A program made the position numbers and the translations under genes. This document shows positions 8,650 to 25,486 of a stretch of 64,000 nucleotides of DNA, piece by piece. This DNA is from Streptomyces sp. 846.5 (lineage in GTDB: Bacteria; Actinomycetota; Actinomycetes; Streptomycetales; Streptomycetaceae). The DNA lies in contig NZ_SOBN01000001.1 in assembly GCF_004365705.1 (NCBI RefSeq), forward strand, positions 5,070,001 through 5,134,000, read 5' to 3'. Every line of letters begins with the position of its first letter. Positions within the stretch are counted from its first letter, which is position 1. Below the pieces are notes generated by a model. It was not told the DNA's origin. It searched no databases and worked only from the letters and a program-made list of their open reading frames with translations.

Positions 8650-8704
8650 GCGGTGTTCCTCCACGATTCGGGGCCGGGGCCGGGTCTGGTGCGGTCGGAA
8701 CCGG

Positions 8705-10123
8705 TCAGACCGGTTTGGCGATGACGACGAACTGGTTCTCCTCGCCGCGGATGAACTTCAGGAAGCCGCGGAAGCCGCCCAGTCCTTCGAGCACCGAGAA
8801 GACCGGTATCAGGGCGACCACGGCCACCGGCTCCCACCAGTGGCGGTGACCGCCGCGCGAGACCAGGCTGTTGAGCCGCAGCCCCTCCCAGTAGGTCCAG
8901 ATGACATAGGCGAAGTTCAGCGCCCAGAGCAGCACGATCGACTGCGCCACGGGCGAGGTGTTCATGCTTCCGCTGAGCCAGGCGAACGCCAGGATCATGC
9001 CGATGTGCTGCAGCGGCCCCAGGATCCAGGTCGCCACGCACACCGCGAGGAACCAGCGGTGCCGCAGCGGGATGGTCCGGTTGAAGCACAGCGCGACCAG
9101 CCCCCAGGACCAGCGCTCGCGCTGCTTGACGAAGTCGCGCACGGTCGCCGGGGAGGCCCCGTAGCAGCGGCCGTTGAACCAGTCGCTGCGGCCCGGGTAG
9201 CGGCTGCAGAAGGTCAGCGCCAGCTGCGCGTCCTCGACGATGGCCTTCGGGCCGAAGTCCCAGCCGATGGTGGCCTCCACCGAGGCTCTGAGCACCAGCA
9301 GCTCGCCGTGAACTCCGGCGATGGGGGTGCCGGTTCCGGTGAGCGCCCGGAAGCGGGCGATGTCGTCGGCGGGGCGCACCGAGTCGGCGAACCAGGTGAA
9401 GCGGTTCGCCGCGTGCTCGCGCGGATAGGTGAGGATGCCCTGCGCCATGTGCTTGACCTCGTCCGGCGTGGCCCGGCGCTGGCGGTTGATGAACTGGGCC
9501 AGGGCCGCCGCGGTGTCGGGGCCCACGCCGGTGTCGTCGTCCATGTGCAGGACCCACACCTCGTCGCGCGCCTCGCCCTCCTCGATCCGCAGCTCGTGGG
9601 AGTAGTGGTTCGCCCGCGCCTTGAAACGGGTCCCGTTGGCGGTGCGGTAGCTCTTGGGGACGCTGACCACGCGGATCAACGGGTCGGTCGCCGCCAGCCG
9701 GTCGATCCGCTCCTCGGCCTCGCAGCCCTCCTCGGTGAGCACGTCGATGCGCAACTGGGTGAAGTAGAGCGGGAGATGCTCCACATAGGACTGCACCGAG
9801 CGTTCCAGCGCCGGGTAGGTGTCATGCCGTCCGATGGTCGGCACCAGCACGATCAGCAGGTCGTTGGAGACCTCGGCCGGCGGGGCCATCTCGTGCCTGC
9901 GCCGGTGCCGTCGGCGGATCAGCACCGCTCCCTGGAGCCCCACCAGCACGCCGATGGCCGGCAGCGACCAGACGATGGTGAGGATCCAGCCGAGCGGGGT
10001 GCCGTTGGGCCGGTACGTCCAGAGCCCCCAGCCCGTCAGCAGGACGAACGGAAGAGCGAAGGGGACGATGCCGGGGCGCCAGTAGTCGATGCGGCGGGCC
10101 AGTTTGCTGCTCTGTCGGGACAT
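8705..10123 (-). CDS. Processive family 2 glycosyltransferase (Egghead/cellulose-synthase-like)
   Basis: 472 aa. Two N-terminal membrane segments, a cytoplasmic GT-A domain and three or four C-terminal segments. Catalytic features of processive GT2 enzymes are present: the nucleotide-sugar aspartates in HMDDDTG, the catalytic pair in IVEDAQL and the acceptor motif KQRERW (Q/RxxRW). Such proteins extend and extrude a beta-linked polysaccharide from a UDP- or GDP-sugar. It lies between a Gln/Pro-rich membrane protein (9 bp upstream) and the glycosidase (55 bp downstream), forming a likely three-gene exopolysaccharide operon. The sugar specificity cannot be read from the sequence. Confidence 0.8.
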   Translation of the reverse strand: MSRQSSKLARRIDYWRPGIVPFALPFVLLTGWGLWTYRPNGTPLGWILTIVWSLPAIGVLVGLQGAVLIRRRHRRRHEMAPPAEVSNDLLIVLVPTIGRHDTYPALERSVQSYVEHLPLYFTQLRIDVLTEEGCEAEERIDRLAATDPLIRVVSVPKSYRTANGTRFKARANHYSHELRIEEGEARDEVWVLHMDDDTGVGPDTAAALAQFINRQRRATPDEVKHMAQGILTYPREHAANRFTWFADSVRPADDIARFRALTGTGTPIAGVHGELLVLRASVEATIGWDFGPKAIVEDAQLALTFCSRYPGRSDWFNGRCYGASPATVRDFVKQRERWSWGLVALCFNRTIPLRHRWFLAVCVATWILGPLQHIGMILAFAWLSGSMNTSPVAQSIVLLWALNFAYVIWTYWEGLRLNSLVSRGGHRHWWEPVAVVALIPVFSVLEGLGGFRGFLKFIRGEENQFVVIAKPV

Positions 10124-10132
10124 CGAACAGCT

Positions 10133-11032
10133 CTACGAGGTGGGGTTCGGCGGCACGGCCCGGAACCGGGTGGTGGCCTCGTCGGACAGCGGAACGGCGT
10201 CGCTCGGCTCGGCCGGCCTCGGCTGTTGCTGCGGAGGCTGCTGTGGCTGCTGCTGCGGCGTGGACAGCTGGGTGGGCGGCGGGGTGGCTGCCGTGGGCGG
10301 TGCGACATAGGGCGGGAGCGTCGGTCCCTGCGGCGGCTGCCCCTGCTGCGGCCCCTGGGGCTGCGGCAGTTGCTGGTAGGCCTGCTGCGGAGCGGCGCTC
10401 TGCGGGTACGCCTGCGGAGGCGCCTGCTGCGGGTAGTAGTGCTGCTGCGGCGCCTGCTGCTGTGGGACGGGCTGCGGGGCGTACTGCGGTGCTCCCTGCT
10501 GCGCCGGGTACATGGCCGCCTGCGCGGCCGCCGTCCACGGGCTCGGCGGCGGCTGCCACGGGACGTGCGCGCCGACCCGTCGCGACAGCATGATCACCAG
10601 GGCGATGGTGACCAGGACTCCCACGATCAGCGTCGCCAGCAGCAGTTGACCCGTCAGCTGCCCGGTGAACCAGGGGCGCTGCGAGGGGTCGAACAACGCC
10701 CCGGTGAGGCTGCGCAGCCGGTTGTAGCCCTCGACCGCCGCGACTCCGCAGACCAGCCCGCGCGCCCAGTGGCTGCCGCGAAGGATGAACAGGCCGCCGA
10801 CGGCGTAGAGGATCGCGTAGTCGAAGCTGGAGGTCTCGGCCTGACCGCTGCCGCCGTGGGAGCCGTAGTAGACGATCCCCAGCAGGAACTGTCCCGGCCC
10901 GACCACCGCAAAGCAGTTGTAGAGTGCACGAACCAGAAGAATCGCCGCCCAGCCGATGGCCACATACGAGGCTGCCCGGTAGAGGGTCGGCACCTCGGCC
11001 GGCCGTGGGGACAGATGCGAATCGGTACTCAT
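10133..11032 (-). CDS. Membrane protein with Gln/Pro-rich cytoplasmic tail
   Basis: 299 aa; no recognised family. Residues ~15-175 contain four hydrophobic segments. Residues ~180-299 are a low-complexity tail rich in Gln, Pro, Ala and Tyr (repeated PQ, QQAP and PQQQ units) ending near LSDEATTRFRAVPPN. The start at 11032 follows a GGGGGAAAG ribosome site 4 bp upstream. It is the first gene of the operon with the GT2 synthase and glycosidase, so it may be an accessory or scaffolding subunit of the polysaccharide synthase. This role is inference from position only. Confidence 0.65.
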   Translation of the reverse strand: MSTDSHLSPRPAEVPTLYRAASYVAIGWAAILLVRALYNCFAVVGPGQFLLGIVYYGSHGGSGQAETSSFDYAILYAVGGLFILRGSHWARGLVCGVAAVEGYNRLRSLTGALFDPSQRPWFTGQLTGQLLLATLIVGVLVTIALVIMLSRRVGAHVPWQPPPSPWTAAAQAAMYPAQQGAPQYAPQPVPQQQAPQQHYYPQQAPPQAYPQSAAPQQAYQQLPQPQGPQQGQPPQGPTLPPYVAPPTAATPPPTQLSTPQQQPQQPPQQQPRPAEPSDAVPLSDEATTRFRAVPPNPTS

Positions 11033-11396
11033 GAGCTTTCCCCCTGGTCGGGCCGATCGGCTGGCGCAGGTACGTGGACACCGCACTCGGCGCGAGTCGC
11101 ACAATAGACCTAGGCTCAAACTCTAGAGCCAAGGTTTTCACAACTGTCACCCAGGCTCCCGTGTGTGTTCGCCGGCCAAAGGCGCCCCTCCGGTTGAGCG
11201 ACGTAGGTCACATTTGCTGGAAGCGGCTTTGGTTGGGATCAGTGGCCGCTAGGTTTCCGATCAGAACCCGCCCGCACCGACGGATGAACCGACGGCGCGG
11301 GCGGTGTCATGCCCGGGCCCATCGAAATTCCGGGCAGGGCTGCCGGTACCCCGGTTAGGGTCGCGCCTGGACCGGCCACACACCCTGGGGGCTTCG
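11033..11396. other. Divergent intergenic region
   Basis: No supported gene. It separates the minus-strand Gln/Pro-rich membrane protein from the plus-strand HAD gene and should hold both promoters. It is less GC-rich than its surroundings around 11100-11260. Small inverted repeats such as GGCTC/GAGCC near 11112-11128 are visible but none is strong enough to name. Confidence 0.4.
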
Positions 11397-12710: not shown

Positions 12711-13742
12711 ATGCCCCGTCTCTCCGTCGTCGTCCCGATCTACAACGTCGAGCGCTACCTCGATGAGTGCCTCGACTCGATCGCCGCCCAGACCTTCGGG
12801 GACTTCGAGTGCGTCCTGGTCGACGACGGCTCGACCGACTCCAGCGCGGCGATCGCCGAGGCATTCGTCGCGAAGGACCCGCGGTTCCGGCTGGTCCAGC
12901 AGGAGAACAAGGGCCTCGGGGCGGCCCGCAACACCGGCTGGCGGAACATCGGCGCCGACACCGAGTACCTGACGTTCGTGGACAGTGACGACACCCTGCC
13001 GCCCGACGCCTACCAGCTGATGGTCGGCACGCTGGACGAGACCGGTTCGGACTTCGTCACCGGAAATGTGCTGCGGTTCAACTCGACGGGGTTCTCCCCG
13101 TCCGGCGTCCACATCAAGCCGTTCCGGGAGACCCGGCTCAAGACCCACATCACCGCGACCCCGGCCCTGGTCACCGACCGCACCGCATGGAACAAGGTCT
13201 ACCGCCGCAGCTTCTTCGACGCCGCGGGCGTGCTCTACCCGGAGGGCATCCTGTACGAGGACGCCCCGGTCAGCGTGCCGCTGCACTTCCTCGCCGCCTC
13301 GGTGGACGTGCTGTCCGATCCGGTCTACCACTGGCGCGTACGCGAGGCCGGCGAGGTGTCGATCACCCAGATGACCGACCCCAGGAGCCTGGTCGACCGG
13401 GTCCGCTCGATCGAGCTGGTCCGGGAGTGGCTGCTCGCCCACCCCGAGCCCGAGTACCGCGACTACCTCCGCTCCTACGACGCCAACACCCTTGTCGAGG
13501 AGATCCCCAAGTTCTTCTGGCTGGTCGCGGACGGCGACGCGGCCTACCGAGTGGCCTACCAGCAGCACGTCACCCCCCTGCTGCAGGCGATCGGCACCGA
13601 ACACCTCCCCGGCCTCAAGGGACCCCTCCGCATCAAGTACCGCCTCACCCTGGCCAACCGCATGCGCGCCTTCATAGCCGTACACCGCCTGCACCGCTTC
13701 TACGTAGCAGCCCGCCGCCGACTCCGCGGCGGGGGCCGGTGA
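12711..13742 (+). CDS. Family 2 glycosyltransferase, wall-glycopolymer type
   Basis: 343 aa. The start LSVVVPIYNVERYLDECL and the metal/nucleotide motif VDDGSTD followed by FVDSDDTL are typical of GT-A, inverting GT2 enzymes. The C-terminal ~100 aa are basic and lack obvious membrane segments, so the protein is probably peripheral. Related Streptomyces proteins act in teichoic-acid-like or teichuronic polymer assembly, often beside TagF-like glycerophosphotransferases; none is present here. ATG 12711 is used because it gives the standard N terminus; a GTG at 12648 in the same frame is possible. The start of a similar gene lies at the right edge of the window. Confidence 0.75.
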   Translation: MPRLSVVVPIYNVERYLDECLDSIAAQTFGDFECVLVDDGSTDSSAAIAEAFVAKDPRFRLVQQENKGLGAARNTGWRNIGADTEYLTFVDSDDTLPPDAYQLMVGTLDETGSDFVTGNVLRFNSTGFSPSGVHIKPFRETRLKTHITATPALVTDRTAWNKVYRRSFFDAAGVLYPEGILYEDAPVSVPLHFLAASVDVLSDPVYHWRVREAGEVSITQMTDPRSLVDRVRSIELVREWLLAHPEPEYRDYLRSYDANTLVEEIPKFFWLVADGDAAYRVAYQQHVTPLLQAIGTEHLPGLKGPLRIKYRLTLANRMRAFIAVHRLHRFYVAARRRLRGGGR

Positions 13743-14063
13743 TTGTCGTCGCCGACGTGGCACGATTCCCCCTGAGTCATTCAGCGGCCCTTCGGGCCTC
13801 GCGGTGGGACGGGAAAATCGGGGGCGTCGTCGGCGTTTGTGCCCCTGCCACGCACGGGGAACGGCAGCATGGTTGTCGTCCGTTCCGGATGACTCCGGAT
13901 CTACTCTGGTGCCTGTGAGCCCGCACCTGAGTCTGGTGGCGGAGGGCGGCCACGGGAACCGTGGATTGTTGCCACGAGCACGAGCGTCAGATTGCATGCT
14001 GACCCCAGCCCTCCCCGGAGCGGTGTCCGACCGACTGCCGAGGCAACCCCGGAGGGGTGGGAG
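13743..14063 (+). other. Non-coding left flank of IS110 element 1 (candidate bridge-RNA region)
   Basis: 321 bp without a convincing gene between the GT2 stop and the transposase start. Several stems are visible: GGCCC-TTC-GGGCC (13786-13798, perhaps the GT2 terminator), GGTGC/GCACC (13908-13927), CCACGG-GAA-CCGTGG (13950-13964), and ACCCC-GGA-GGGGT (14046-14058). The last one contains the GGAGGGG ribosome site of the transposase. In IS110-group elements the 5' non-coding end is transcribed into the bridge RNA that selects donor and target DNA. That role for this stretch is inference; no boundary or target loop was identified. Confidence 0.4.
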
Positions 14064-15314
14064 ATGGACGTCGTCCACGAGCGCGTCGCCGCGCTGGACG
14101 TCAGCAAGAAGGACGCCAAGGTGTGCGTCCGGGTCCCCGGCGCGCGCAAGGGGACCTTCGCCAGGGAGGTGACCACCTGGGGGTCGATGACCGGCCAGGT
14201 CCTCGAACTGCGTGAGTTCCTCCTGGACAAGAACGTGACGCTGGTCGTCATGGAGGCGACCGGCGACTACTGGAAGCAGTTCTACTACCTTCTGGAGGAC
14301 GCACTGCCAGTGCAGTTGGTCAACGCGGCCCACGCGAAGAACCTGCCCGGCCGCAAGAGCGACGTGAACGACGCCCAGTGGCTGGCTCAACTCGCAGCCC
14401 ACGGGCTGCTGCGCGGCTCACTGGTGCCGCCGCCACCCGTGCGTGAACTGCGCGACCTGACCCGCCTGCGCTCCAAGCTGACCAACGACCGCTCCAAGGA
14501 GCACCAGCGGCTGGAGAAGCTCCTGGAGGACGCGGGCGTCAAACTGTCCGTGGTGGCCACCGACATCCTCGGCGTCTCCGGTCGGCTCATGCTCGGGGCC
14601 CTGTGTGCGGGCACGGCCGGCCCCGAGGCGATGGCCGAGCTGGCCAAGGGCCGCATGCGCTCGAAGATCCCCGAGCTGCGCGAGGCCCTGACCGGCCGCT
14701 TCACCAGCCACCACGCCTTCCTGACCCGCCTGCACCTGCAAGTAATCGACGGCTTCGATGCGGCCATCGCCGAACTGGAGGCACGGATCGAGGTGGTGAT
14801 GGAGCCCTTTCGCCCCCTGATCGACCTCCTGCTGACCATGCCCGGTATCGGCGAGAAGACCGCGCAGGTGATGGTCGCCGAGGCCGGTGCGGTCATCGAC
14901 TGCTTCCCCAGCGCCGCATGCTTCGCGTCCTGGGCCGGACTCGCCCCCGGCTCCAACCAGTCAGGGCCGAAGACCAAACCCGCCAGGACCAGACATGGCA
15001 ACACCTACCTCAAGGGCGCCCTCGGCATCGCAGCGCTGTCCGTCTCCCGCTCCCGCGGCACGTTCCTCAGCGCCCGCTATCACCGCATAGCCACCCGCCG
15101 AGGCCCGATGAGAGCCCTGGTCGCCACCGAGCACTCCATGGCCACGGCGATGTGGCACATGCTCACCCAGGGCGTGCCCTACCTCGAACTCGGCGGCGAC
15201 TACTACACCCGCCGCGACCCCGAACGCGCCAAGGCCCGCATCACCGCCCAGGCAGAGGCCCTCGGGCTCGCCGTCACCTTCAGCCCCATCGAGCCCGACA
15301 CCGCTTCCCAATGA
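14064..15314 (+). CDS. IS110-family transposase 1 (DEDD recombinase)
   Basis: 416 aa and apparently complete. The N-terminal RuvC-like DEDD domain shows Asp in ALDVSKKD, Glu in VMEATGDYW and the pair in KSDVNDAQWLA. A helical linker (residues ~130-260) precedes the C-terminal Transposase_20 domain, with the helix-hairpin-helix MPGIGEKTA, then FASWAGLAPG and RHGNTYLKGAL, in which the catalytic serine region of the family lies. IS110 transposases recombine DNA with an element-encoded bridge RNA. Start ATG 14064 has GGAGGGG 6 bp upstream, inside a small hairpin. It shares little sequence with transposase 2, so the two are separate elements and not duplicates. Confidence 0.9.
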   Translation: MDVVHERVAALDVSKKDAKVCVRVPGARKGTFAREVTTWGSMTGQVLELREFLLDKNVTLVVMEATGDYWKQFYYLLEDALPVQLVNAAHAKNLPGRKSDVNDAQWLAQLAAHGLLRGSLVPPPPVRELRDLTRLRSKLTNDRSKEHQRLEKLLEDAGVKLSVVATDILGVSGRLMLGALCAGTAGPEAMAELAKGRMRSKIPELREALTGRFTSHHAFLTRLHLQVIDGFDAAIAELEARIEVVMEPFRPLIDLLLTMPGIGEKTAQVMVAEAGAVIDCFPSAACFASWAGLAPGSNQSGPKTKPARTRHGNTYLKGALGIAALSVSRSRGTFLSARYHRIATRRGPMRALVATEHSMATAMWHMLTQGVPYLELGGDYYTRRDPERAKARITAQAEALGLAVTFSPIEPDTASQ

Positions 15315-15319
15315 AGTTG

Positions 15320-16510
15320 TCAAGCAACTGCGGTGACTGGCGGTGCAACTTGGTAGCACCGTCGGTCACGGATCAGAGCCCAGAAGACGTTGACGCGTCG
15401 GCGGGCCAGGGCGATGACGGCCTGGGTATGGCGCTTGCCCTCTGCGCGCTTGCGGTCGTAGAAGCGGCGCGAGTTGGGGTCGCAGCGGATGCTGATGAGC
15501 GCGGAGGTGTAGAAGACGCGCTGCAGGCCGCGGTGGTACTGCTGAGGGCGGTGCAGGTTGCCGCTGGTCTTTCCGGAGTCGCGTGGTGCCGGTGCCAGGC
15601 CGGCGAACGCCGCGAGGCGGTCCGGGTTCGCGAAGGAGTCCATGTCACTGCCCACGGCGGCCAGAAACTCGGCTCCGAGAAGGGAACCGATGCCGGGCAT
15701 GCTGGTGATCACCTCGGCGAGCTCGTGCTGGCGAAACCGGCCCTCGATGAGCTTGTCGATCTCCGCGATCTTCCCGTTGAGAGCCACCACCTCCTCTGTG
15801 AGCGTGCGCACCATCGCGGCGAGGGTCCCCTCGCCGGGAACCGCGGTGCGCTGGCGCTCAGCGGCCTCGACCGCGGCAGCGGCCAGGGCCTCGGCGCCGC
15901 GAACCTTGCGGGCACGCAACCACTTCGCGAGCCGGGCCGCCCCCAGGCGCCGGATCGCGTCCGGGGTCTGATATCCGCTCAGCAGCACCAGCGGCCCCGT
16001 GTTGGTCAGCTCCAGAGCGCGCTCCAAACCGGGGAACATGCTGGTCAGCATGCCCCGCAGGCGGTTGACCGCGCGAGTTCGGTCGCAGACCAGGTCGGTG
16101 CGCCGATTGGTGAACAGGCGCAGTTCGATGCTCGCCTCGTCGCTGGGGCGCATCGGCTTCAGGTCCCGGCGGATGCGGGCCTGGTCCGCGATGACCAGCG
16201 CGTCGCGGGCATCGGTTTTGCCTTCGCCGCGGTAGCCGTCAGTGGCCCGGTTGACCGCCCGCCCGGGGATGTAGAGCAGCTCCTGTTCGTGGTTGACCAG
16301 CAGAGCGATCAGCAGGGCGGCCCCGCCGTCGGCCATGTCCACCGCCCAGGTGACCTGGTCTGCCAGGGCGAGGACGTCGGCGAGGAGTTGGAGGAGCTCC
16401 GGTTCGTCGTTGGCCACCCGTCGGGACAGCAGCTTGGCGCCGTCGGTGTCCAGCACCACGCAGTGGTGGTGGGTCTTGCCGCTGTCGATCCCGGCCCATA
16501 TTCGGCTCAT
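15320..16510 (-). CDS. IS110-family transposase 2 (DEDD recombinase)
   Basis: 396 aa, apparently full length. The N terminus AGIDSGKTHHHCVVLD opens the RuvC-like domain, VDMADGG holds the second acidic site and GKTDARDA the third and fourth. The C-terminal half has the helix-hairpin-helix MPGIGSLLGAEF, then AFAGLAPAPRDSGK and the conserved RRVNVFWAL end. It belongs to the IS116/IS110/IS902 branch common in Streptomyces. ATG 16510 is chosen because AGIDSGK then lies at the usual position. Its stop is 5 bp from that of transposase 1, so one or both elements have lost or share their right ends. Confidence 0.9.
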   Translation of the reverse strand: MSRIWAGIDSGKTHHHCVVLDTDGAKLLSRRVANDEPELLQLLADVLALADQVTWAVDMADGGAALLIALLVNHEQELLYIPGRAVNRATDGYRGEGKTDARDALVIADQARIRRDLKPMRPSDEASIELRLFTNRRTDLVCDRTRAVNRLRGMLTSMFPGLERALELTNTGPLVLLSGYQTPDAIRRLGAARLAKWLRARKVRGAEALAAAAVEAAERQRTAVPGEGTLAAMVRTLTEEVVALNGKIAEIDKLIEGRFRQHELAEVITSMPGIGSLLGAEFLAAVGSDMDSFANPDRLAAFAGLAPAPRDSGKTSGNLHRPQQYHRGLQRVFYTSALISIRCDPNSRRFYDRKRAEGKRHTQAVIALARRRVNVFWALIRDRRCYQVAPPVTAVA

Positions 16511-16871
16511 CGTGCTCCCAAGAGTCGTTCCTGCAGTGCGTACCACGGACGACCTCGCCGGCATTGCCTTACGCAGCGACTTGTTCGCACTTCCCAATCA
16601 GCGGCCCGGTCGTCGTGGGGTGCCGGGCGGCGAAGCGAAGTCAGCCATGGACGGCAGCCGCCTGAAAGCCACACCCGGCACCCCTGGGCGACCCAACCCT
16701 ACGAATGGCTCGATCAACCCGTCCAACAACGTAAGGCCGCCTGACAACGCCCACAGTGCACCATTTGCGCAGGCCGGCCGCCACCGGTTCCCGAAGCATG
16801 TCAACAAGGCACCGCCGCACCTTCCGTCTGCCGGGCTGACCGTGATTTTCGCGTCAGTGGAGGGGGAGGGC
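16511..16871 (-). other. Non-coding left flank of IS110 element 2 with long stem (candidate bridge RNA)
   Basis: 361 bp with no supported gene, upstream of transposase 2 on its strand. It contains a perfect 11-bp stem, GGGGTGCCGGG at 16617-16627 pairing with CCCGGCACCCC at 16674-16684, extended by GTCG (16612-16615) with CGAC (16689-16692) across an asymmetric internal loop; 46 nt are enclosed. A long stem with internal loops upstream of an IS110-group transposase is what a bridge RNA would look like. Function is inferred. The right part also contains the GGAGGGGGAGGG ribosome site (16859-16870) of the next gene. Confidence 0.45.
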
Positions 16872-17501
16872 ATGAATGAGTCGGGTCGGGTGGAGGCGTT
16901 CAGCGACGGGGTGTTCGCGATCGCCATCACGTTGTTGATCCTGGACGTCCAGAAGCCGTCGACGACTACCGGGGAGAGCTTGGCGCATCAGCTCATGCGT
17001 CAATGGCCTGAATATGACGCATATGTGGTCAGCTTCCTTGTCATTGGAATTATGTGGGCCAACCACCACCAGGTCTTCAGTTATGTCGCCAGGGTGGACC
17101 GGACGCTGGTGTTCCTGAACCTGTTGCTGTTGATGGGGGTTTCGGCGCTGCCGTGGGCCACGTCGGTGGTGTCGAGCTACCTGAACAAGCCGCAGGGTGC
17201 GCAGTTGGCGGTGGCGCTCTATGGCGGGTTCATGGTGGCGCATGCGCTGACGTTCACGGCGCTGTGGTGGTGGCTGACCCGGACCGGGCATCTCTTCGAC
17301 GCGCGGGTGGACGAGGTGCGGGCCAAGGAGACGCGGGTGCGGTTCGCGGTGGGGACGGTGGTGTACCCGGTTCTGATGGGGCTGTCGTTCGTGAATGCGC
17401 TGCTGACGCTCGCGCTGCACGGGGCCATCGCGATCTACTACGCCTTCAACCAGCTGCATGTGCCGACCAAGCCCGAGACGGCCTCGGTCTCGGCGGAGTA
17501 G
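16872..17501 (+). CDS. TMEM175-family (DUF1211) potassium-channel-like protein
   Basis: 209 aa with six hydrophobic segments. The N terminus RVEAFSDGVFAIAITLLILDV is the family signature; the FSD motif in TM1 marks prokaryotic TMEM175 proteins, which assemble as tetrameric potassium-permeable channels. IMWANHHQVF and the following segments also fit. A very strong purine-rich ribosome site (16859-16870) precedes the ATG. It stands alone, with a hairpin terminator 14 bp after its stop. Channel activity is known for relatives, and for this protein it is inferred. Confidence 0.85.
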   Translation: MNESGRVEAFSDGVFAIAITLLILDVQKPSTTTGESLAHQLMRQWPEYDAYVVSFLVIGIMWANHHQVFSYVARVDRTLVFLNLLLLMGVSALPWATSVVSSYLNKPQGAQLAVALYGGFMVAHALTFTALWWWLTRTGHLFDARVDEVRAKETRVRFAVGTVVYPVLMGLSFVNALLTLALHGAIAIYYAFNQLHVPTKPETASVSAE

Positions 17502-17514
17502 CCGGGCAACGACC

Positions 17515-17544
17515 GAGGGCCCCGCGGGGGAAGACGGGGCCCTC
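17515..17544 (+). terminator. Hairpin terminator after the TMEM175-like gene
   Basis: Perfect 10-bp stem GAGGGCCCCG (17515-17524) with CGGGGCCCTC (17535-17544) and a 10-nt loop, starting 14 bp after the stop codon. There is no U-tract, as is common in Streptomyces terminators. Confidence 0.65.
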
Positions 17545-18322
17545 AATCTGCGGCAACCGGCGTCAGGGCAGCGCCGGTGCTGCGGGAACGGCACCGGGGG
17601 AGGGGTGCCGTTTGTCAGTTGGTTCCGGGTTCACCTGGGCAGGGGGCGCGCGCATCGGGCATACGCCTCTGGGCAGGGACGGCGAGGTGGGTGGCTGGCC
17701 CACGGGGCCGATTTGACTACTGTGAGTGACTGGCGAGAGTCCGTTCGGAGCGGTTTCCCGGCCTGCTGGGGGCGGTGTTCCACAGTGCCGATCCGCTGCC
17801 TCGATGCCACCCCCTCACCAGCATCGTGGGGGATATGGCCGTTGTTGCGCAACAGGTTCGGCACACATCGGCATAGTCGTTTTCTGTGAACCGACGTGCG
17901 GCGGTGCCCCTGAGGGCGGTGCGGTGCCGACGTTACGCTCTGCGAGGGGAAGCGCGAGGGGGTGCGCAGTGGGATGTGCGCCGGGGGACGGGTACTGATC
18001 CGGGGCGGTCGGAGCCGAGCGTCCCCGGTGCCGACCGCCCCTTCACAACAGATCACTTCAGTCATGACCGGGCGGCTGTCCCCTGCTGCCCGGTCGAGGC
18101 GTCGGCGCGAGGTCCCACGACACACCGGTTAGGGCGAGTCTCATCGCGTCGGCGGACTGTTGTGACACTCCACGCGTGGTCCTGCTAGCCGTACACGTCC
18201 CCCGGAAGGGGGCTGGGAGCACGTCACTGGCCGGGACGTGAACCCCGTACGGTCATGGGGAACAACGATTCTCCTGATGAGGGGTCACGGCTTCTGGTAC
18301 CCGGCGAACGAGTGAAGCCGCT
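17545..18322. other. Long non-coding region upstream of the chorismate mutase leader
   Basis: About 780 bp with no convincing gene on either strand; reading frames here lack ribosome sites and recognisable products. It is somewhat less GC-rich than the flanking genes. A hairpin GGGGCGGTCGG (18002-18012) with CCGACCGCCCC (18031-18041) encloses 18 nt and could end an unrecognised small transcript. A stretch at 18196-18240 can pair ACGTCCC with GGGACGT. A TTGACT at 17713 is one promoter-like hexamer. A small RNA here is possible, and I cannot demonstrate one. Confidence 0.35.
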
Positions 18323-18403
18323 ATGATGACCGCCATGTTCTGCGCGGCATTCAACTTTAGCTATGGCACCGGAAGCCCCGGTCGCCATGGTGATGCCGTC
18401 TGA
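18323..18403 (+). CDS. Putative Phe/Tyr-rich leader peptide of chorismate mutase
   Basis: 26-codon reading frame (possible starts at 18323, 18326 and 18335) ending at TGA 18401-18403. From the 18335 ATG the peptide begins MFCAAFNFSYG, with three Phe and one Tyr within ten residues, including a TTT Phe codon and a TAT Tyr codon, both rare in DNA this GC-rich. It is followed 22 bp later by a 16-bp hairpin and then by chorismate mutase, an enzyme of the Phe/Tyr branch. This is the layout of a ribosome-mediated attenuator. The ribosome site is weak (GAGTGAAG). That the peptide is translated and regulatory is inference. Confidence 0.5.
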   Translation: MMTAMFCAAFNFSYGTGSPGRHGDAV

Positions 18404-18425
18404 CATCAGGACGAACAGACATCAC

Positions 18426-18460
18426 ACAGGCGCCCCGGGCCATCGGCCCGGGGCGCCTGT
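18426..18460 (+). terminator. Strong hairpin between the Phe leader and chorismate mutase (putative attenuator)
   Basis: Perfect 16-bp inverted repeat: arms 18426-18441 and 18445-18460 around an ATC loop, almost all G-C. It is followed by TCGTCTCC and not by a U-run. It lies after the leader peptide stop and 54 bp before the chorismate mutase ATG, so it would stop transcription inside the leader. A smaller stem, ACCGG/CCGGT at about 18368-18382, overlaps the leader coding sequence and could be the pause hairpin. Confidence 0.6.
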
Positions 18461-18514
18461 CGTCTCCCCGGCGCCGGTTCGGCCCCCGGCGCCGTAACCG
18501 AGGGAGAACCGTCC

Positions 18515-18805
18515 ATGGACACCAACATCAGCACGAACACGAACACGCTCACCCCCGAGCAGGCCCGGGCGGTGATCGCCGAGGCGCGCGGGCGCATCGA
18601 CGAGCTGGACCAGCGCATCATCGAACTGGTCCGGCAGCGGATGGGCGTCTCCGCCGAGGTCCAGTCCGCCCGGATCACCACCGGCGGCCCGCGGCTCGCG
18701 CTCAACCGCGAACTGGAGATCCTGGCCCGCTACCGTGCCGCGCTGGGCCCGCAGGGCACCGAGGTCGCGATGCAGTTGCTGGAGCTGTGCCGGGGCCGGG
18801 CCTGA
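18515..18805 (+). CDS. Chorismate mutase, AroQ class
   Basis: 96 aa, the normal size of a single-domain AroQ chorismate mutase, which converts chorismate to prephenate for Phe and Tyr synthesis. The pattern RGRIDELDQRIIELVRQRM carries the N-terminal active-site Arg and the characteristic IDxLDxxIxxLxxxR helix; the second helix follows with SAEVQSAR and the third with REIEILARY-like spacing. GAGGGAGAAC precedes the ATG. The gene stands downstream of a putative Phe attenuator and ~90 bp upstream of a pstA remnant, so its 3' neighbourhood has been rearranged. Confidence 0.85.
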   Translation: MDTNISTNTNTLTPEQARAVIAEARGRIDELDQRIIELVRQRMGVSAEVQSARITTGGPRLALNRELEILARYRAALGPQGTEVAMQLLELCRGRA

Positions 18806-18896
18806 GCTGTTCCACGAGAGCCGTTCTTAACAAGGGGCAACCTTCCGGGGAATAGCTGAACGGAGAAGGTCCGATTCCTTTCCATGCCTACACAAT

Positions 18897-19187
18897 CTGG
18901 CGCGCGGGGTGGGAGAGACCTCGCCGGTGCTGCTGACCTCGGGGTTCACCTCGGGGATGAACGCCGATCCGTTCTCGGACCACCAGGTCAGCCTGCCGCT
19001 CTACATCTGGAACTACGTCAGGTATCCCGCGCCGGACATGGTGGCCCGCGGCTTCGCCGCCGCGCTGACGCTGATGGCGATGGTGCTGGTGCTCTTCGTC
19101 ACGGCCCGGCTGATCGGCGGCCGCCGCCCGGGTGAGCTGAGCCGTCGTCAGCGCCGAAGGCTCCGGCGGGAGATGGCCGCGGCATGA
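18897..19187 (+). pseudogene. pstA: C-terminal remnant of pstA (phosphate ABC permease)
   Basis: The frame begins to look like PstA abruptly at LARGVGETSPVLLT, the equivalent of the conserved RxAGETAPLL block in the permease, and continues through the last periplasmic loop (SLPLYIWNYV) and final membrane segment to a normal Arg-rich C terminus. About 96 of the usual ~290 residues remain. Upstream in the same frame the sequence is unrelated to a permease, and no pstC is present. A GTG at 18909 could start a 92-aa protein but has no clear ribosome site. I read this as a deletion scar; microhomology was not examined. The remnant still leads directly into the PstS-like gene. Confidence 0.75.
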
Positions 19188-19213
19188 GTCGAACCGGAAC
19201 CGGAGGAGAACCC

Positions 19214-21049
19214 ATGTCAGCGACACCCCGCGGGGCCGGTCGCCCGTCGCGCCTGCTGGCTGTTCTGGTCTGTGCCGTCGCCCTGCTCCTGGTGCAGAGC
19301 GGCACTGCCGACGCCGCGACCTCGCTCAACGGTGACGGCTCCAGTTGGGCGGGGCCCGCGCTGGACCAGTGGCGGCAGGACGTGGGTCCGCAGGGAATCA
19401 ACATCAACTTCTCGCCGGTCGGCTCCGCCGCCGGGCGCCAGCAGTGGAGCCTGGGCCAGGACGATTTCACCGCCTCCGACGTGCCGTTCCGTACCCATGC
19501 CGACGCCGGTATGCCGACCAACGGCGGGCAGACCTTCAACGGTGCGGAGAACCCGGTCTACGACTTCTCCTACGTCCCGGTCACGGCCGGCGGCACCGCG
19601 TTCATGTACCACCTCACCGTCGGCGGCAAGTTGGTCCGCAACATGCGGCTGTCGCCCGCCACCCTGGTGAAGATCTTCACCGGGGCGATCACCTACTGGG
19701 ACGACCCGACGATCGTCCACGAGTACGGCAGCGCTCTGCCGCACACCCAGATCACCCCGGTGGTCCGCTCCGACGGATCGGGTGCGACCGCACAGTTCAC
19801 CCGGTACATGGAGCACACCTACAAGTCCCAGTGGGACGCCTACTGCCAGGCCCAGGTCCATTCGACCTGCGGCGACTACACCGAGTTCTTCCCGCGGTCG
19901 GGCGTCATGGTCGCGCAGAACGGCTCCGACGTGGTCGCCGACTACATCCAGTCGCCCACCGGCGAGGGCACCATCGGGTACGACGAGTACGCCTACGCCA
20001 AGCGCGCCAACTGGCCCGTGGTGAAGGTGCTCAACCCGGCCGGGTACTACACCCTGCCGACCGCCTCCAATGTGGCCGTGGCGCTGACCGCGGCCAGGAT
20101 CCGCGGCGTGGACGACAACACCTCGCCCAACGATCCCAACTACCTCCAGCAGAACCTGGACGGCGTCTACACCAACAGCGACCCGCGCTCCTATCCGGTC
20201 TCCAGCTACAGCTACCTGATCGTGCCGAGGGCCGGCGAGTCGCGTGGGGTGCCGCCGCGCTTCACCACGGCCAAGGGGTCGGCGCTCAGCCGCTACATCG
20301 GCTACATCCTCTGCGCCGGGCAGGGCGAGGCCGACCAGCTGGGGTACTCGCCGATCCCGCGCGGGCTGGTGAAGGGCGGTCTGCTCCAGGTCGCGCACGT
20401 CCCGGGGAACGCCAGCGGCGTCGACCCCAACACGCTCGGCAACTGCCCCAACCCGACCTTCAACGCGGCCGGACAGCTGACGGTGCTGACCCAGGCTCCG
20501 CAGCCGAGCCCGTGCGACAAGGCGGGAGAGCCGCTGACCTGCACGGTGCAGGCGAACGGGCAGCCCAGCACCCAGGGCAGCGGGTCGGGCTCCGGCGGTT
20601 CCGGCTCCGGGACGGGGGGCAGCAGCGGCTCGTCCGGCAGCACGGGCGGTACCGGCAGCAGCGGGGGGACGGGGACCTCGGGGACCGGCGGCGGGGCGAG
20701 TGGCGGCGCCACCGGTTCGGCCTCGGGCTCCGGAGGGTCCACCGGCGGAAAGGTCGATCCGGAAACCGGTCAGGTGGTCCCGACCTCGGGCACCGGGACC
20801 GGCAGCGGGGACGGATCCGGGAACGGGGCCCCCGCCACCATCGTCTCCCTGGCCGGACGGCACGACGACGCCCTGCTGAGCTCGCTCACCGCGCTCGAAC
20901 TGCTCGCCGTCGTCAGCGTGCCCCCCGCTGTCGGCGGCTACCTGGCCCGGCGTCGGCGCCTCCTCTCCCTTGGCGCCGGCGCCGGGCCCCACCCCGACGG
21001 CGACAGCGGGGGTACCGGCAGCGGCGGCAGCGAGGAGGCAGGCCGATGA
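19214..21049 (+). CDS. PstS-like substrate-binding protein with Gly/Ser linker and C-terminal anchor
   Basis: 611 aa, far longer than a standard PstS (~370). It has a signal peptide (LLAVLVCAVALLLVQSGTADA), a PstS-like domain (residues ~35-420) with GDGSSWAGPALDQW, SDVPFR and the phosphate-binding loop RSDGSGATAQF, then a Gly/Ser/Thr linker (~455-560) and a C-terminal hydrophobic segment followed by YLARRRR. No LPxTG-type sorting motif is visible. The ATG follows GGAGGAG. The linker should hold the binding domain away from the membrane. Its stop overlaps the start of the sortase-like gene (ATGA), so the two are translationally coupled. Confidence 0.8.
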   Translation: MSATPRGAGRPSRLLAVLVCAVALLLVQSGTADAATSLNGDGSSWAGPALDQWRQDVGPQGININFSPVGSAAGRQQWSLGQDDFTASDVPFRTHADAGMPTNGGQTFNGAENPVYDFSYVPVTAGGTAFMYHLTVGGKLVRNMRLSPATLVKIFTGAITYWDDPTIVHEYGSALPHTQITPVVRSDGSGATAQFTRYMEHTYKSQWDAYCQAQVHSTCGDYTEFFPRSGVMVAQNGSDVVADYIQSPTGEGTIGYDEYAYAKRANWPVVKVLNPAGYYTLPTASNVAVALTAARIRGVDDNTSPNDPNYLQQNLDGVYTNSDPRSYPVSSYSYLIVPRAGESRGVPPRFTTAKGSALSRYIGYILCAGQGEADQLGYSPIPRGLVKGGLLQVAHVPGNASGVDPNTLGNCPNPTFNAAGQLTVLTQAPQPSPCDKAGEPLTCTVQANGQPSTQGSGSGSGGSGSGTGGSSGSSGSTGGTGSSGGTGTSGTGGGASGGATGSASGSGGSTGGKVDPETGQVVPTSGTGTGSGDGSGNGAPATIVSLAGRHDDALLSSLTALELLAVVSVPPAVGGYLARRRRLLSLGAGAGPHPDGDSGGTGSGGSEEAGR

Positions 21050-21981
21050 GCGCCCCGCCCCTGGACCGTCCGGCGGTCACCGCGCCTCCGGCGCCGCCCG
21101 AGCCCCCCGCGGTCCCCAGCACCGCGGCCGACCCGGCGCCGGTCCGCCCCCGCCGGCCCCCGGTGTCGCCGGGACGGCGGCGACTGCTCCACATCGCCAC
21201 AGTCGTCAGCCTGTCGGGCTTCCTGCTGGTCGGCTTCGCCGTGTACCTGCTCGCCTTCGCGGGCCTGCAGGAGCAGCACTTCCAGTCCACCTCCTACAAG
21301 TCCTTCGCGCTGGACCTCGGCAACGCGGTGGCGCCGACCGGCAGCGCCCCCGACGGCGCGCCGGTCGCCGTCATCGACATCCCCGCCATCGGACTGCACT
21401 CGACCGTGGTCGTCGAGGGCACCACCGGACGGGACCTGATGCGCGGCCCCGGACACCGCAGGGACACCGCGCTGCCCGGTCAACAGGGCGTCAGCGTGCT
21501 CTACGGACGCACCGTCACCTTCGGCGGCCCGTTCGCCGACATCACCGCGCTCCGGACCGGGGACCGGATCTACGCCACCACCGGGCAGGGCCGGTTCAGC
21601 TACACCGTCGACGCCTTCGGCGACGGCGGCCACCCGATCAGGGACACCGCGACCGCACGGCTGGTCCTGGTCACCGGGAACTCCAGCTGGATCCCCACCG
21701 GCACGACGATCGTCGGCGCCCGGCTCGACGGCACGGCGGCGCCGAACCCGGGCGGCCGTCCGGCCGTGGTCGCCCAGGACAGGGCACTGGCCGCCGACGA
21801 CTACGGGCTCGCGCCGCTGCAGTTGTGGTCGCTGGCGCTGCTGGGCGCGGTGCTGCTGACCACCGTCGGGTCAAGGGTGTGGCACCCGCAGGCGGCCTAC
21901 CTGGCCGGAGCCCCGGTCGTGATGGCGCTGCTCTGGAGCGTCTACGAGAACGCGGCCGCGCTGCTTCCCAACCTCTACTGA
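21046..21981 (+). CDS. Sortase-fold membrane protein lacking catalytic residues (pseudosortase)
   Basis: 311 aa: Pro-rich cytoplasmic tail, one N-terminal membrane segment, a sortase-like domain (residues ~90-230) and two C-terminal membrane segments. The fold is recognisable from VIDIPAIGLHSTVVVEGT, DLMRGPGH, PGQQGVSVLYG and LRTGDRIYATTGQGRFSYTV. The catalytic His of the GHR motif is Arg155 (LYGRTV), the TLxTC cysteine is Gly211 (LVLVTGNS), and the expected Arg on the last strand is replaced (PTGTTIVGARL). It therefore should not perform transpeptidation. Wedged between PstS-like and PstB genes, it may be a structural partner of the surface binding protein. No LPxTG substrate is encoded nearby. 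Confidence 0.75.
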   Translation: MSAPPLDRPAVTAPPAPPEPPAVPSTAADPAPVRPRRPPVSPGRRRLLHIATVVSLSGFLLVGFAVYLLAFAGLQEQHFQSTSYKSFALDLGNAVAPTGSAPDGAPVAVIDIPAIGLHSTVVVEGTTGRDLMRGPGHRRDTALPGQQGVSVLYGRTVTFGGPFADITALRTGDRIYATTGQGRFSYTVDAFGDGGHPIRDTATARLVLVTGNSSWIPTGTTIVGARLDGTAAPNPGGRPAVVAQDRALAADDYGLAPLQLWSLALLGAVLLTTVGSRVWHPQAAYLAGAPVVMALLWSVYENAAALLPNLY

Positions 21982-21993
21982 CGGAGAGACGCG

Positions 21994-22875
21994 ATGAGCG
22001 ACACCACGGCGGCCGACCCGACCGTCCCCATCGCCACCCTCGGCGGCGCCGACGCCGTCGACACCGTGGCCCTGCCCGCCGTCCGGTCGGACGGCACCGA
22101 CCTCTACGGGATGGAGAGCCGGGGCGTCTCCGCCTGGTTCGGCAGCCACAAGGTGCTCGACCGGGTCTCGTTGGCGATGCGGCCGGGCGAGGTCACCGCG
22201 CTGATCGGCCCGTCCGGCTGCGGCAAGTCCACCTATCTGCGGATCCTCAACCGGATGCACGAGATGGTCCGCGGCGCCGCCCTGGCCGGCGAGGTGCTGC
22301 TGGACGGGGAGGACGTCTATGCGCCGGGCCGGCGTCCGGCCGACGTGCGGCGCCGGATCGGGATGGTCTTCCAGCGGCCCAACCCCTTCCCCGCCATGTC
22401 CCTCTACGACAACGTCGCCAGTGGGCTGAAGCTCGCCGGGATCAAGGTGAGCCGGGACCACCGCGACCATCTGGTGCAGTCCAGCCTGGAGCGGGCCGGG
22501 CTGTGGAACGAGGTCCGCAACCGGCTTCGCACCCCCGGCGGCTCACTCTCCGGCGGCCAGCAGCAGCGGCTCTGCATCGCCCGCTCGCTGGCGGTCTCCC
22601 CGGACGTGCTGCTGATGGACGAGCCCTGCTCGGCGCTGGACCCCACGTCCACCCGGCGGGTCGAGGAGACCATCGCGGAGCTGCGCGGGCGGCTCACCAT
22701 CGTGATCGTCACCCACAACATGCAGCAGGCCCTGCGGGTGTCGCAGTCCTGTGCCTTCTTCCTGGCGACCCATGACACCCCGGGCCGGATCGTCGAGGCG
22801 GGGGCCACCGGGCAGCTGTTCGGGGACCCGGTGGATCCGCGTACGGCGGACTACGTCAACGGTCGTTTCGGCTGA
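21994..22875 (+). CDS. pstB: Phosphate-type ABC transporter ATP-binding protein (PstB-like)
   Basis: 293 aa. Walker A GPSGCGKST at residues 72-80, Q-loop VFQRPNPFPAM, signature LSGGQQQRLCIARSL, Walker B VLLMDEPCSALDP and the switch His in VTHNMQQA are all intact. The N terminus has ~40 extra residues compared with ordinary PstB. It follows the pseudosortase by 12 bp in the same operon. Because the permease genes are missing or truncated here, it must work with another membrane partner, have another role, or be on the way to decay; the reading frame itself shows no damage. Confidence 0.85.
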   Translation: MSDTTAADPTVPIATLGGADAVDTVALPAVRSDGTDLYGMESRGVSAWFGSHKVLDRVSLAMRPGEVTALIGPSGCGKSTYLRILNRMHEMVRGAALAGEVLLDGEDVYAPGRRPADVRRRIGMVFQRPNPFPAMSLYDNVASGLKLAGIKVSRDHRDHLVQSSLERAGLWNEVRNRLRTPGGSLSGGQQQRLCIARSLAVSPDVLLMDEPCSALDPTSTRRVEETIAELRGRLTIVIVTHNMQQALRVSQSCAFFLATHDTPGRIVEAGATGQLFGDPVDPRTADYVNGRFG

Positions 22876-22989
22876 TCAGGGCCGGAACGGGGGACGGCCG
22901 GGGGGAGCGCGGGGCGACGGCTGAGCAGAGGGGTGCGCGGGCGACGGTAGGATGGGACTCCCCCCATCGCACCGCCGGAAGGCCGCCCT

Positions 22990-24594
22990 GTGGCAATCGC
23001 GACCCCCGACCACCAGTCGACGACTCCGCACGAGCAGGACACCGTGCTCGTCGTCGACTTCGGCGCCCAGTACGCCCAGCTCATCGCGCGCCGGGTCCGC
23101 GAGGCCCGGGTCTACAGCGAGATCGTCCCGTCGAGCATGCCGGTCGCCGAGATGCTGGCCAAGAGGCCCGCGGCGATCATCCTGTCCGGCGGGCCCTCCT
23201 CGGTGTACGCCGAGGGTGCCCCGGTGCTGGAGCGGGCGATCTTCGAGGCCGGGGTGCCGGTCTTCGGCATGTGCTACGGCTTCCAGCTGATGGCCGTGGC
23301 GCTCGGCGGCACCGTCGACAACAGCGGCGCCCGTGAGTACGGCCGGACCGGGCTGACCGTCTCCCGTCCCGGGTCGACCCTGTTCGAGGGGACCCCGGCC
23401 GAGCAGTCGGTGTGGATGTCGCACGGCGACGCCTGCTCCGCCGCTCCCCCCGGGTTCACCGTCACCGCCTCCACCGAGGTGGTCCCGGTCGCCGCGTTCG
23501 AGGACGACGCCCGCAAGCTCTACGGCGTCCAGTACCACCCCGAGGTGCTGCACACCACGCACGGCCAGCAGATCCTGGAGCACTTCCTCTACCGCGGCGC
23601 CGGTATCGCCCCGTCCTGGACCACGACCAATGTGGTGGACGAGCAGGTCGCGCTGATCCGCGCCCAGGTCGGCGACAAGCGGGCCATCTGCGGCCTCTCC
23701 GGCGGGGTGGACTCCGCGGTCGCCGCCGCGCTGGTGCAGAAGGCCGTCGGCGCTCAGCTGACCTGCGTGTACGTCGACCACGGGCTGATGCGCAAGGGCG
23801 AGTCCGAGCAGGTCGAGAAGGACTTCGTGGCGGCCACCGGCGTGCAGCTGAAGGTCGTCGACGCCGAGGATCGCTTCCTGACCGCGCTGGCCGGGGTGTC
23901 CGACCCGGAGCAGAAGCGCAAGATCATCGGCCGGGAGTTCATCCGGGTCTTCGAGCAGGCCGCCAGCGAGATCGTGGCCGAGGCCGGCGCCTCCGGCGAG
24001 TCGGTGGAGTTCCTGGTCCAGGGCACCCTCTACCCGGACGTGGTGGAGTCCGGCGGTGGCACCGGCACCGCCAACATCAAGTCGCACCACAATGTCGGCG
24101 GCCTCCCCGAGGACCTGCAGTTCCAGCTGGTCGAGCCGCTGCGCAAGCTGTTCAAGGACGAGGTCCGGATGGTCGGCGCCGAGCTCGGCCTGCCCGAGGA
24201 GATCGTCCAGCGGCAGCCCTTCCCCGGTCCGGGGCTCGGCATCCGCATCGTCGGCGAGGTCACCAGGGCCCGGCTCGACCTGCTCCGCGAGGCCGACGCC
24301 ATCGCCCGCGCCGAGCTGACCGCGGCCGGCCTGGACCGCTCGATCTGGCAGTGCCCGGTGGTGCTGCTCGCCGACGTCCGCTCGGTCGGCGTCCAGGGCG
24401 ACGGCCGCACCTACGGCCACCCGGTCGTGCTGCGCCCGGTCTCCTCCGAGGACGCCATGACGGCCGACTGGTCCCGGGTCCCCTACGAGGTGCTGGCCAA
24501 GATCTCGACGCGGATCACCAACGAGGTCCCGGACGTGAACCGGGTCGTACTGGACGTGACCAGCAAGCCCCCGGGCACCATCGAGTGGGAGTAG
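22990..24594 (+). CDS. guaA: GMP synthase (glutamine-hydrolysing)
   Basis: 534 aa. The N-terminal class I amidotransferase domain has the nucleophile Cys95 in FGMCYGFQ and the His/Glu pair in QYHPEV; the ATP pyrophosphatase domain has the P-loop SGGVDS (residues 237-242); the C-terminal dimerisation domain ends in KPPGTIEWE as in other GuaA proteins. It converts XMP, ATP and glutamine to GMP. It starts with GTG. The gene is monocistronic in appearance, 115 bp after pstB and 100 bp before the next gene. Confidence 0.97.
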
Positions 24595-24694
24595 CCCACT
24601 TCCCCTCGACCGGCTCTGGCTCGGAGTCTCTGGTCATCGGCACTACCGGGGGGTAGCTTCCTGGCGAGGATCCCACCCTGCGAGGAGAGCTGTC

Positions 24695-25486
24695 ATGACC
24701 AAGCCGCCGCCTGCTCCGGTTCCCATGGATCAACTGCAGTTCGCGCTGCCGCAGAAGTTCGAGACCGTCGAGGAGGAGCGGCAGCACCGCAAGGAGCGGC
24801 TGGTGGTGGCGCTGCGGCTGTTCGGGAAGTTCGGCTTCGAGGAGGGCGTGGCCGGGCACATCACCGCCCGCGACCCCGAGTGGACCGACCACTTCTGGGT
24901 GAACCCGTTCGGGATGTCGTTCAAGCGGATCACGGTCAGCGATCTGATCCTGGTGAACCACGACGGCCAGGTCGTCCAGGGCCGTCACCATGTGAACGCC
25001 GCCGCCTTCGCGATCCACTCGCAGGTGCACGCCGCGCGCCCGGAGGTGGTCGCGGCCGCGCACAGCCACTCCATCCACGGCAAGACGCTGTCCGCGCTGG
25101 GCGAGCTGCTGGAGCCGATCACCCAGGACGTCTGCGCCTTCTACGAGGCCCATGCGCTGTTCGACGACTACACCGGCGTGGTCCTGGACCGGGAGGAGGG
25201 CCGCCGGATAGCCGCCGCGCTGGCCGGCCACAAGGCCGTCATCCTGCGCAACCACGGACTGCTGACCGTGGGCGACTCGGTGGACGCGGCCGCCTGGTGG
25301 TTCATCACCATGGAGCGGTCCTGCCAGGTGCAGCTGATGGCCAGAGCGGCGGGCAAGCCGGTCCTGGTGGACCACGATAACGCGGTGATCACCCGGGACC
25401 AGCTCGGCAACGACCTGGTGGCCTGGATCAACTACCAGCCGCTGGTCGCCGGGCACGAGGACGCGCTGGTCGGCGCGTTCGAGTAG
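24695..25486 (+). CDS. Class II aldolase/adducin-family protein
   Basis: 263 aa. The zinc-binding histidines of the family appear in AAHSHSIHGK and in the later RNHGLLTVG. Catalytic members cleave sugar phosphates such as fuculose or ribulose phosphate, while others are decarboxylases or uncharacterised. A CGAGGAGAG ribosome site lies just before the ATG. The substrate cannot be deduced; neighbours (guaA, DoxX) do not form an obvious pathway. Confidence 0.8.
   Translation: MTKPPPAPVPMDQLQFALPQKFETVEEERQHRKERLVVALRLFGKFGFEEGVAGHITARDPEWTDHFWVNPFGMSFKRITVSDLILVNHDGQVVQGRHHVNAAAFAIHSQVHAARPEVVAAAHSHSIHGKTLSALGELLEPITQDVCAFYEAHALFDDYTGVVLDREEGRRIAAALAGHKAVILRNHGLLTVGDSVDAAAWWFITMERSCQVQLMARAAGKPVLVDHDNAVITRDQLGNDLVAWINYQPLVAGHEDALVGAFE

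Follow-up and report, generated by a model that had tools for sequence, protein, structure and literature searches.

A probable truncated copy of a conserved actinobacterial Pst-type operon with a pseudosortase in Streptomyces sp. 846.5

The stretch of 64,000 nucleotides from Streptomyces sp. 846.5 analysed here (hereafter the window; G000:C1:5070001-5134000 of a 9.03-Mb genome in five contigs, with 100% completeness) carries a short row of pst-like genes devoid of a complete permease gene, namely the remnant of pstA, a long pstS, a gene for a sortase-like protein without catalytic residues (the pseudosortase) and pstB. Taken as a whole, this locus is probably best explained as a truncated copy of a conserved actinobacterial importer operon of the Pst type, in which the pseudosortase would have a docking role. 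As judged from comparison with relatives, its permease-less state is the product of one deletion of ~8.1 kb rather than any novel assembly. What was puzzling about the locus thus appears to be settled by a fresh deletion, without a permease-free machine, and attention shifts to the intact parent, which is the unusual element: an ATP-binding cassette (ABC) operon of the Pst type with a helix-held PstS, a second PstS-fold protein lacking the phosphate loop, and a pseudosortase.

Among the matches listed, the nearest relative is Streptacidiphilus jeojiense (locus L007, genome G005), whose pseudosortase is 92% identical to that of the window and which possesses a complete operon between the same flanking genes. 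These are the chorismate mutase gene on the left (18515..18805, + strand; PF01817, NF005894), residues 15-96 of which are 91% identical to G005 8879-9124, and guaA on the right (22990..24594, + strand), 96% identical over 534 residues to its counterpart and named from sequence, with no family search behind the name. When aligned to 31 kb of G005, window positions 16859-18901 correspond to G005 7126-9210 (87%) and positions 18898-24602 to G005 17321-23018 (91%). The two alignments meet at the deletion junction (18898..18901), where they overlap by 4 bases, and the ~8.1 kb of G005 lying between 9210 and 17321 are absent from the window. A close relative hence holds the intact allele at the same place, the pattern expected of a recent loss. 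The absent stretch contains two orf166-like stretches (32% identity), a 194-residue secreted-looking frame, P914 (a PstS-fold surface protein named for a 914-residue relative), pstC and most of pstA. In G005, the frames of P914, pstC, pstA, pstS and the pseudosortase are whole, and pstB aligns over 293 codons. The intergenic region that follows the chorismate mutase gene in both genomes (window 18806..18897, + strand, from the G005 alignment) now abuts the pstA tail, and no promoter-like or terminator-like match was found in a scan of window positions 18700-19300, which span the junction. One illegitimate deletion of ~8.1 kb would have brought pstA, from about its codon 283 onwards, next to the region behind chorismate mutase.

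The missing genes were also searched for in the rest of the genome. The PstA of the relative retrieved the window tail, a paralogue on contig C3 (50% identity), the canonical pst operon and weaker permeases; its PstC retrieved a C3 paralogue (57% identity), the canonical operon and weaker permeases, and its P914 a C3 paralogue with 34% identity. Since only the window tail and paralogues were returned, pstC, the front of pstA and P914 appear to have been lost and not moved. Relocation of the permease genes, a point raised in an earlier note made from the window alone, was rejected on the same grounds. That the gap is an assembly error, the operon being whole in the strain, is extremely improbable: the junction is taken from the assembled sequence, but the genome is in five contigs and complete by the estimate given above, the joined ends have only a few bases in common, so that no repeat explains a collapse, and the missing genes were found on no other contig.

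Concerning the genes left at the locus, all on the + strand, the pstA remnant (18900..19187) encodes the C-terminal 95 residues of a PstA, covers positions 198-267 of the 272 of the PstA model TIGR00974 (expect value, E, 4e-8 in a profile search) and, over 95 residues, has 97% identity to the full-length frame for PstA in the relative. It overlaps (19184-19187) with pstS (19184..21049), coding for a PstS-type binding protein of 621 residues with a Gly/Ser linker and a C-terminal membrane helix (TIGR00975, E 8e-44; PF12849); an alternative ATG start for this gene is at 19214, with GGAGGAG immediately 5'. pstS in turn overlaps (21046-21049) with the pseudosortase gene (21046..21981; 311 residues; PF04203 Sortase, E 2e-13), which is separated by 12 bases from pstB (21994..22875; TIGR00972, E 7e-98), whose product is an ABC ATPase with nucleotide-binding motifs intact as judged by eye. 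The PF04203 match is over its cut-off, while the NCBIfam scores of the PstA tail, PstS, sortase and PstB are all below the curated cut-offs. The frames of the three genes pstS, pseudosortase and pstB are open, with no stop or frameshift. Frames, coupling and family matches agree with what the earlier note had read here, i.e. a PstA reduced to its last ~96 residues, an anchored PstS with a Gly/Ser linker, an inactive sortase fold and PstB. With pstC absent and pstA cut to 95 codons, the window copy lacks the two permeases of a PstSCAB system; the absence of PstC and reduction of PstA noted earlier hold for this locus but not for the genome, which has a canonical pstSCAB operon (L006) and, on contig C3, a second complete operon with its own pseudosortase (L005).

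The order in the C3 operon is orf166, pstC, a PstA-PstS frame, P914, an Ig/PBP protein, a WxLIP-domain protein, pseudosortase and pstB. At positions 5411-8227 of L005, one uninterrupted frame codes for PstA and then PstS, which suggests a fusion of permease and binding protein joined by a hydrophobic stretch.

The distribution of the parent operon was surveyed in at least 78 loci from other genomes, found with two peptide patterns taken from two sequences; the sample is biased to this family, and the patterns exclude the former His and Cys positions. In 77 of the 78 loci, pstB follows the pseudosortase gene at a distance of no more than 5 kb, and in 71 of no more than 700 bases. Thirty loci, referred to as type A and including the arrangement of the window, have the order P914-pstC-pstA-pstS-pseudosortase-pstB; 35 (type B) have pstS-P914 5' of the pseudosortase, and 13 fit neither type in the stretch examined. 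PstC and/or PstA matches were directly seen in 62 of the 78 loci, and in seven further ones (L036, L048, L051, L057, L061, L070 and L083) pstC is on the same contig and strand, ~12-15 kb upstream. Every locus with sufficient sequence, 69 of the 78, has permease genes, the other nine stopping at a contig edge, so that permease, binding protein and ATPase genes are encoded together in the parent operon. In L064, the pst genes are divergent. On this comparison, the ancestral order at the window is that of type A: upstream genes, P914, pstC, pstA, pstS, pseudosortase and pstB. The placement of pstC and pstA between chorismate mutase and pstS, envisaged in the earlier note for relatives, is the one seen in S. 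jeojiense.

The survey also bears on the idea that the permease-free trio is a non-transport surface assembly, e.g. a phosphate sensor or a wall structure. This reading, highly improbable in our view, is supported solely by the window read alone, against permease genes in every informative relative and, in the nearest one, at the very same place; it was rejected for the sampled family. Of the two options proposed in the earlier note, decay of a whole system and a non-transport assembly, the former fits this genome, with frames still open after one ~8.1 kb deletion, and the latter finds no support.

Many soil actinobacteria carry the parent operon; among its hosts are Kitasatospora, Streptomyces, Nocardioides, Microbacterium, Cryobacterium, Actinoplanes, Asanoa, Pseudarthrobacter and others. 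At the genus level, a match at E <=0.001 was obtained in 12 of 14 genomes; it covers most of the protein, at E <=1e-29, in 11, whereas in G009 it is confined to residues 102-189; at the order level, 18 of 99 genomes, the own genome counted, match at E <=1e-15. As for selection, the ratio of nonsynonymous to synonymous substitution rates (dN/dS) of the pseudosortase gene lies between 0.087 and 0.379 in 11 of 12 pairs of relatives (not all independent, members L058 and L080 recurring), which argues that the gene is maintained. In Actinomycetota, the parent system is patchy in its distribution and for the most part under purifying selection, and it seems lost elsewhere too. Two pseudosortase copies among the 18 order-level matches, G058:C19:575429-576370 and G025:C10:108-1082, contain one and two in-frame TGA, respectively, and the system may be decaying in these other genomes as well.

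In the comparison of the window with G005, the pstA tail has a dN/dS of 0.047, and the three complete genes give 0.254 (pstS), 0.183 (pseudosortase) and 0.285 (pstB); the values in the flanks are 0.472 (chorismate mutase), 0.113 (guaA) and 0.133 (24695-25486, the gene after guaA). Although dead, the pstA tail thus still has the look of a constrained sequence, which points to a young deletion, and the remaining frames would be intact most likely because the deletion is recent. Amino-acid changes were polarised with G004 and G006, many being unassignable: for PstS, 13 were assigned to the window and five to G005, small numbers next to 22 unassigned changes, while the counts are five vs. three for the pseudosortase and four vs. 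four for PstB. Among 12 pairs of relatives, 11 have a lower pstB ratio than window and G005, although values of 0.24 and 0.50 are seen in two pairs of type A. The pstB ratio and the excess of PstS changes are weak evidence that selection on the trio may be relaxed.

The same figures concern the possibility that the residual trio is still used, working in trans with the C3 PstC and PstA-PstS fusion or with the canonical PstC-PstA. Its frames are intact, its PstB is 72% identical to the C3 PstB (56% to the canonical one) and the dN/dS of its three genes (0.18-0.29) is below 1. Such values are, however, expected after a recent deletion anyway, as the pstA tail shows, the C3 permeases have only the identities reported above to the lost ones, and both the high pstB ratio and the PstS changes, with the reservations just given, speak against continued use, which we regard as unlikely. 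We infer that the truncated window copy, probably unable to import anything alone, is at present inactive.

The pseudosortase itself was examined in 79 sequences (77 of the 78 loci, the short L071 being dropped, plus C3 and the window), with the ten other sortases of the own genome, read in the frame holding the His and Cys motifs, as reference. While His and Cys are both present in 10 out of 10 of these sortases, the window pseudosortase has Arg155 at the His column, Gly211 at the Cys column and Thr220 at the class E Arg position, in accordance with the inactivity proposed in the earlier note. In the family, the His column is occupied by Arg in 78 of the 79 sequences and by His in one (L084), the Cys is replaced in all 79 (Ala in 45, Gly in 28 and Ser in six), and no Cys was found anywhere in the domain region of any of them. 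The Arg column was set with the genome's three class E sortases as guide, and only three of its ten sortases place Arg there; in the pseudosortases, it is occupied by Thr (30), Val (28), Ile (10) or other residues, with Arg in one of 79. By alignment, the lack of the catalytic His-Cys-Arg is a conserved family feature and not part of the decay in the window. For comparison, the catalytic residues of SrtE1 of S. coelicolor are His251, Cys320 and Arg329 (PMC5148588).

Both profile and model assign the sortase beta-barrel fold to this protein. PF04203 is matched in 44 out of 44 pseudosortases, and the best NCBIfam match of the window protein is class E (E 9e-18). Its predicted structure (mean predicted local distance difference test score, pLDDT, 88.6) starts with a long helix, continues with the barrel and closes with two helices ending in LLPNLY, Pro308 of this end motif being invariant in the 44-row alignment. 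The best Foldseek matches against the PDB are SrtD 4d70 (E 5e-11) and SrtE 5go6 (E 4e-10); the domain resembles classes D and E and not class B.

It could be argued that the sortase-like protein is an active transpeptidase which uses another catalytic residue to attach PstS and P914 to the wall: the fold and the motifs around the former active site are retained, the Arg replacing His is nearly invariant, and the tail of PstS, with its helix and Arg, is laid out like a sorting signal. This is nonetheless very unlikely in view of the Cys-less domain region, of a Cys position that is mostly Ala or Gly and rarely Ser, and of the PstS tails, among which neither LPxTG nor LAxTG, the motif of a sortase substrate, was found in any of 66.

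All 66 PstS sequences possess a C-terminal hydrophobic helix, whereas a lipobox N-terminal to the binding domain was found in only one (L046); the canonical PstS of the own genome has a lipobox. Concerning the phosphate site, with positions given in E. coli numbering, the equivalents of Arg135, Ser139 and Gly140 are retained in nearly all PstS, and that of Asp56 is either Asp or Glu (Glu in 21 of 33 type B sequences).

As for P914, the protein of S. jeojiense (3233-5473 of L007) was modelled with a mean pLDDT of 79.6 and its best structure matches are PstS (4lvq, TM-score 0.78 by target length). The PstS model is weakly matched by 32 of 35 P914, a P914-PstS profile comparison gives a probability of 98.5, and the Arg-x-Asp-Gly-Ser-Gly phosphate loop was found in none of the 35. 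A smaller part of the protein gave weak structure matches to macromomycin (E 0.007) and neocarzinostatin (E 0.015), and one of 35 P914 matches the enediyne chromoprotein model. Since P914 lacks the phosphate loop and the pseudosortase its catalytic residues, the operon carries two proteins with known folds minus the active residues. A defence system was also considered and rejected: in PADLOC (E 0.001), PstB matched eight models, mostly over short ATPase stretches, and no match was obtained for PstS, pseudosortase, orf166, P914 or the WxLIP proteins.

The parent system is most likely a surface-anchored ABC importer of the Pst type for phosphate or a related oxyanion. PstS would catch the ligand while being held in the membrane by its C-terminal helix, on the flexible Gly/Ser arm; PstC-PstA would form the channel, and PstB would provide ATP. 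The pseudosortase would be a membrane-embedded, non-catalytic subunit docking the C-terminal tail regions of PstS and/or P914 beside the permease, a binding role retained from a sortase ancestor after catalysis was lost. The deletion, the conservation of the family, the linkage in one operon, the missing catalytic residues and the helix at the end of PstS are seen in the sequence; substrate and docking we infer. More tentatively still we propose, as a possibility with rather less than even chances, that a sortase fold has become a lasting component of an ABC importer without catalytic activity, holding the tails of PstS and loop-less P914 beside PstC-PstA and forming with P914 a surface scaffold in place of the lipid anchor of ordinary Gram-positive binding proteins.

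Several results weigh against one part or another of this scheme. The equivalent of Thr141 is Ala in 31 of 33 type A PstS, and the ligand of this type may consequently be other than phosphate. No juxtamembrane motif common to PstS and P914 tails, which would have spoken for their recognition by the pseudosortase, was found by eye, many PstS tails having a common pattern, with PP in the helix, and the P914 tails differing in look. One pair of pseudosortases, with few changes, gives a dN/dS of 0.687. As the remaining genes have no stop or frameshift and the pstA tail looks constrained, present decay in the window rests on the permease loss. Phosphate regulation adds to these reservations. Using as PHO-box consensus a GTTCACC repeat with an 11-base step, scored out of 14 (~1.1 matches of >=10 per kb being expected by chance), the canonical pstS reaches 12 and the window region at most 10. 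None of 32 type A loci reaches 12 in the 1.2 kb 5' of P914, the C3 operon scores 8, and G005 has one 12-of-14 match, on the minus strand and further upstream of the operon. Phosphate regulation of type A, to which the window belongs, is unsupported by these scores, and the PHO box was rejected as a sign of phosphate control for the window.

Of 27 type B rows, 16 were retained (10 being invalid, as the stretch scored extended beyond the start of the locus, and the canonical operon L006 being set aside), of which three reach 13 (L035, L037 and L038), and the rank p is <=0.05 in seven; phosphate regulation is suggested for some of these relatives only. In L035 (1229), L037 and L038 (1302), from Marmoricola and Microbacterium, the 13-of-14 PHO-box-like repeats are ~100 bases 5' of pstC. 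A GTTCAC repeat is the recognition sequence of the regulator PolR in Microlunatus, and the passages on it in that source do not mention a sortase (PMC6754071).

Compared with PstSCAB, the parent operon likewise has genes of the PstC, PstA and PstB families and a PstS with most phosphate-site positions kept, but it adds the pseudosortase and a second PstS-fold protein, its PstS carries a helix at the C-terminus and lacks a lipobox in 65 of 66 sequences, and the type A region tested is without PHO-box-like sites. With the sortases of classes E and D (S. coelicolor SrtE1, 5cuw; C. perfringens SrtD5, 4d70; S. avermitilis SrtE, 5go5), the pseudosortase has in common the fold, according to the model and Foldseek, and with active sortases the GH / PG motifs as well as a number of columns with Gly or Pro. 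It differs from them by the missing catalytic His, Cys and Arg, by two extra C-terminal helices ending in LLPNL and by its place in an ABC transporter operon. A likeness to the WxL/WxLIP surface clusters (DUF916; PMC10599100, PMC9772566) lies in the WxLIP peptidoglycan-binding protein (PF06030) and the Ig-like proteins of the C3 operon, similar proteins being found in other type B loci; WxLIP-like matches occur, however, in only 20 of 70 loci with 9.5 kb upstream, and none is listed in 30 type A loci. Next to srtF1 and srtF4 of Actinoplanes missouriensis, surface proteins with a signal peptide, a C-terminal helix, a basic tail and no pentapeptide adjoin sortase genes, but those genes are named class F sortases, and the word phosphate is absent from the text of the paper (PMC13251363).

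In a review of phosphate transport in Streptomyces, PstSCAB and Pit are the conserved systems, and the word sortase is absent (PMC7866108). Literature searches on pseudosortases, Cys-less or inactive sortases, sortases with pst genes, anchored phosphate-binding proteins and WxL with phosphate transport, with most subscription journals outside reach, revealed no description of the arrangement among the listings and abstracts covered. As far as these searches reach, the pseudosortase-bearing operon, present in many actinobacterial genera, is undescribed; the earlier remark that an inactive sortase in a phosphate transporter operon was not a recognised arrangement is borne out, with the addition that it is conserved in the family. 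If the pseudosortase does dock binding proteins to the permease, it would represent a new job for the sortase fold and another route, beside the lipid anchor, by which Gram-positives hold binding proteins close to their transporters. With Streptomyces sp. 846.5, nature provides a deletion mutant, to be compared with a sister species whose operon is intact.

Two further differences between the window and G005 were observed. Window positions 5114-11190 (~6 kb) are not aligned to G005 although both sides are, which may reflect an insertion in the window or a loss in G005. A second stretch without alignment to G005, at 13731-16858, contains an IS110-family transposase gene (PF01548, PF02371; 15320-16597, - strand), which lies ~2.3 kb 5' of the junction and not at it.

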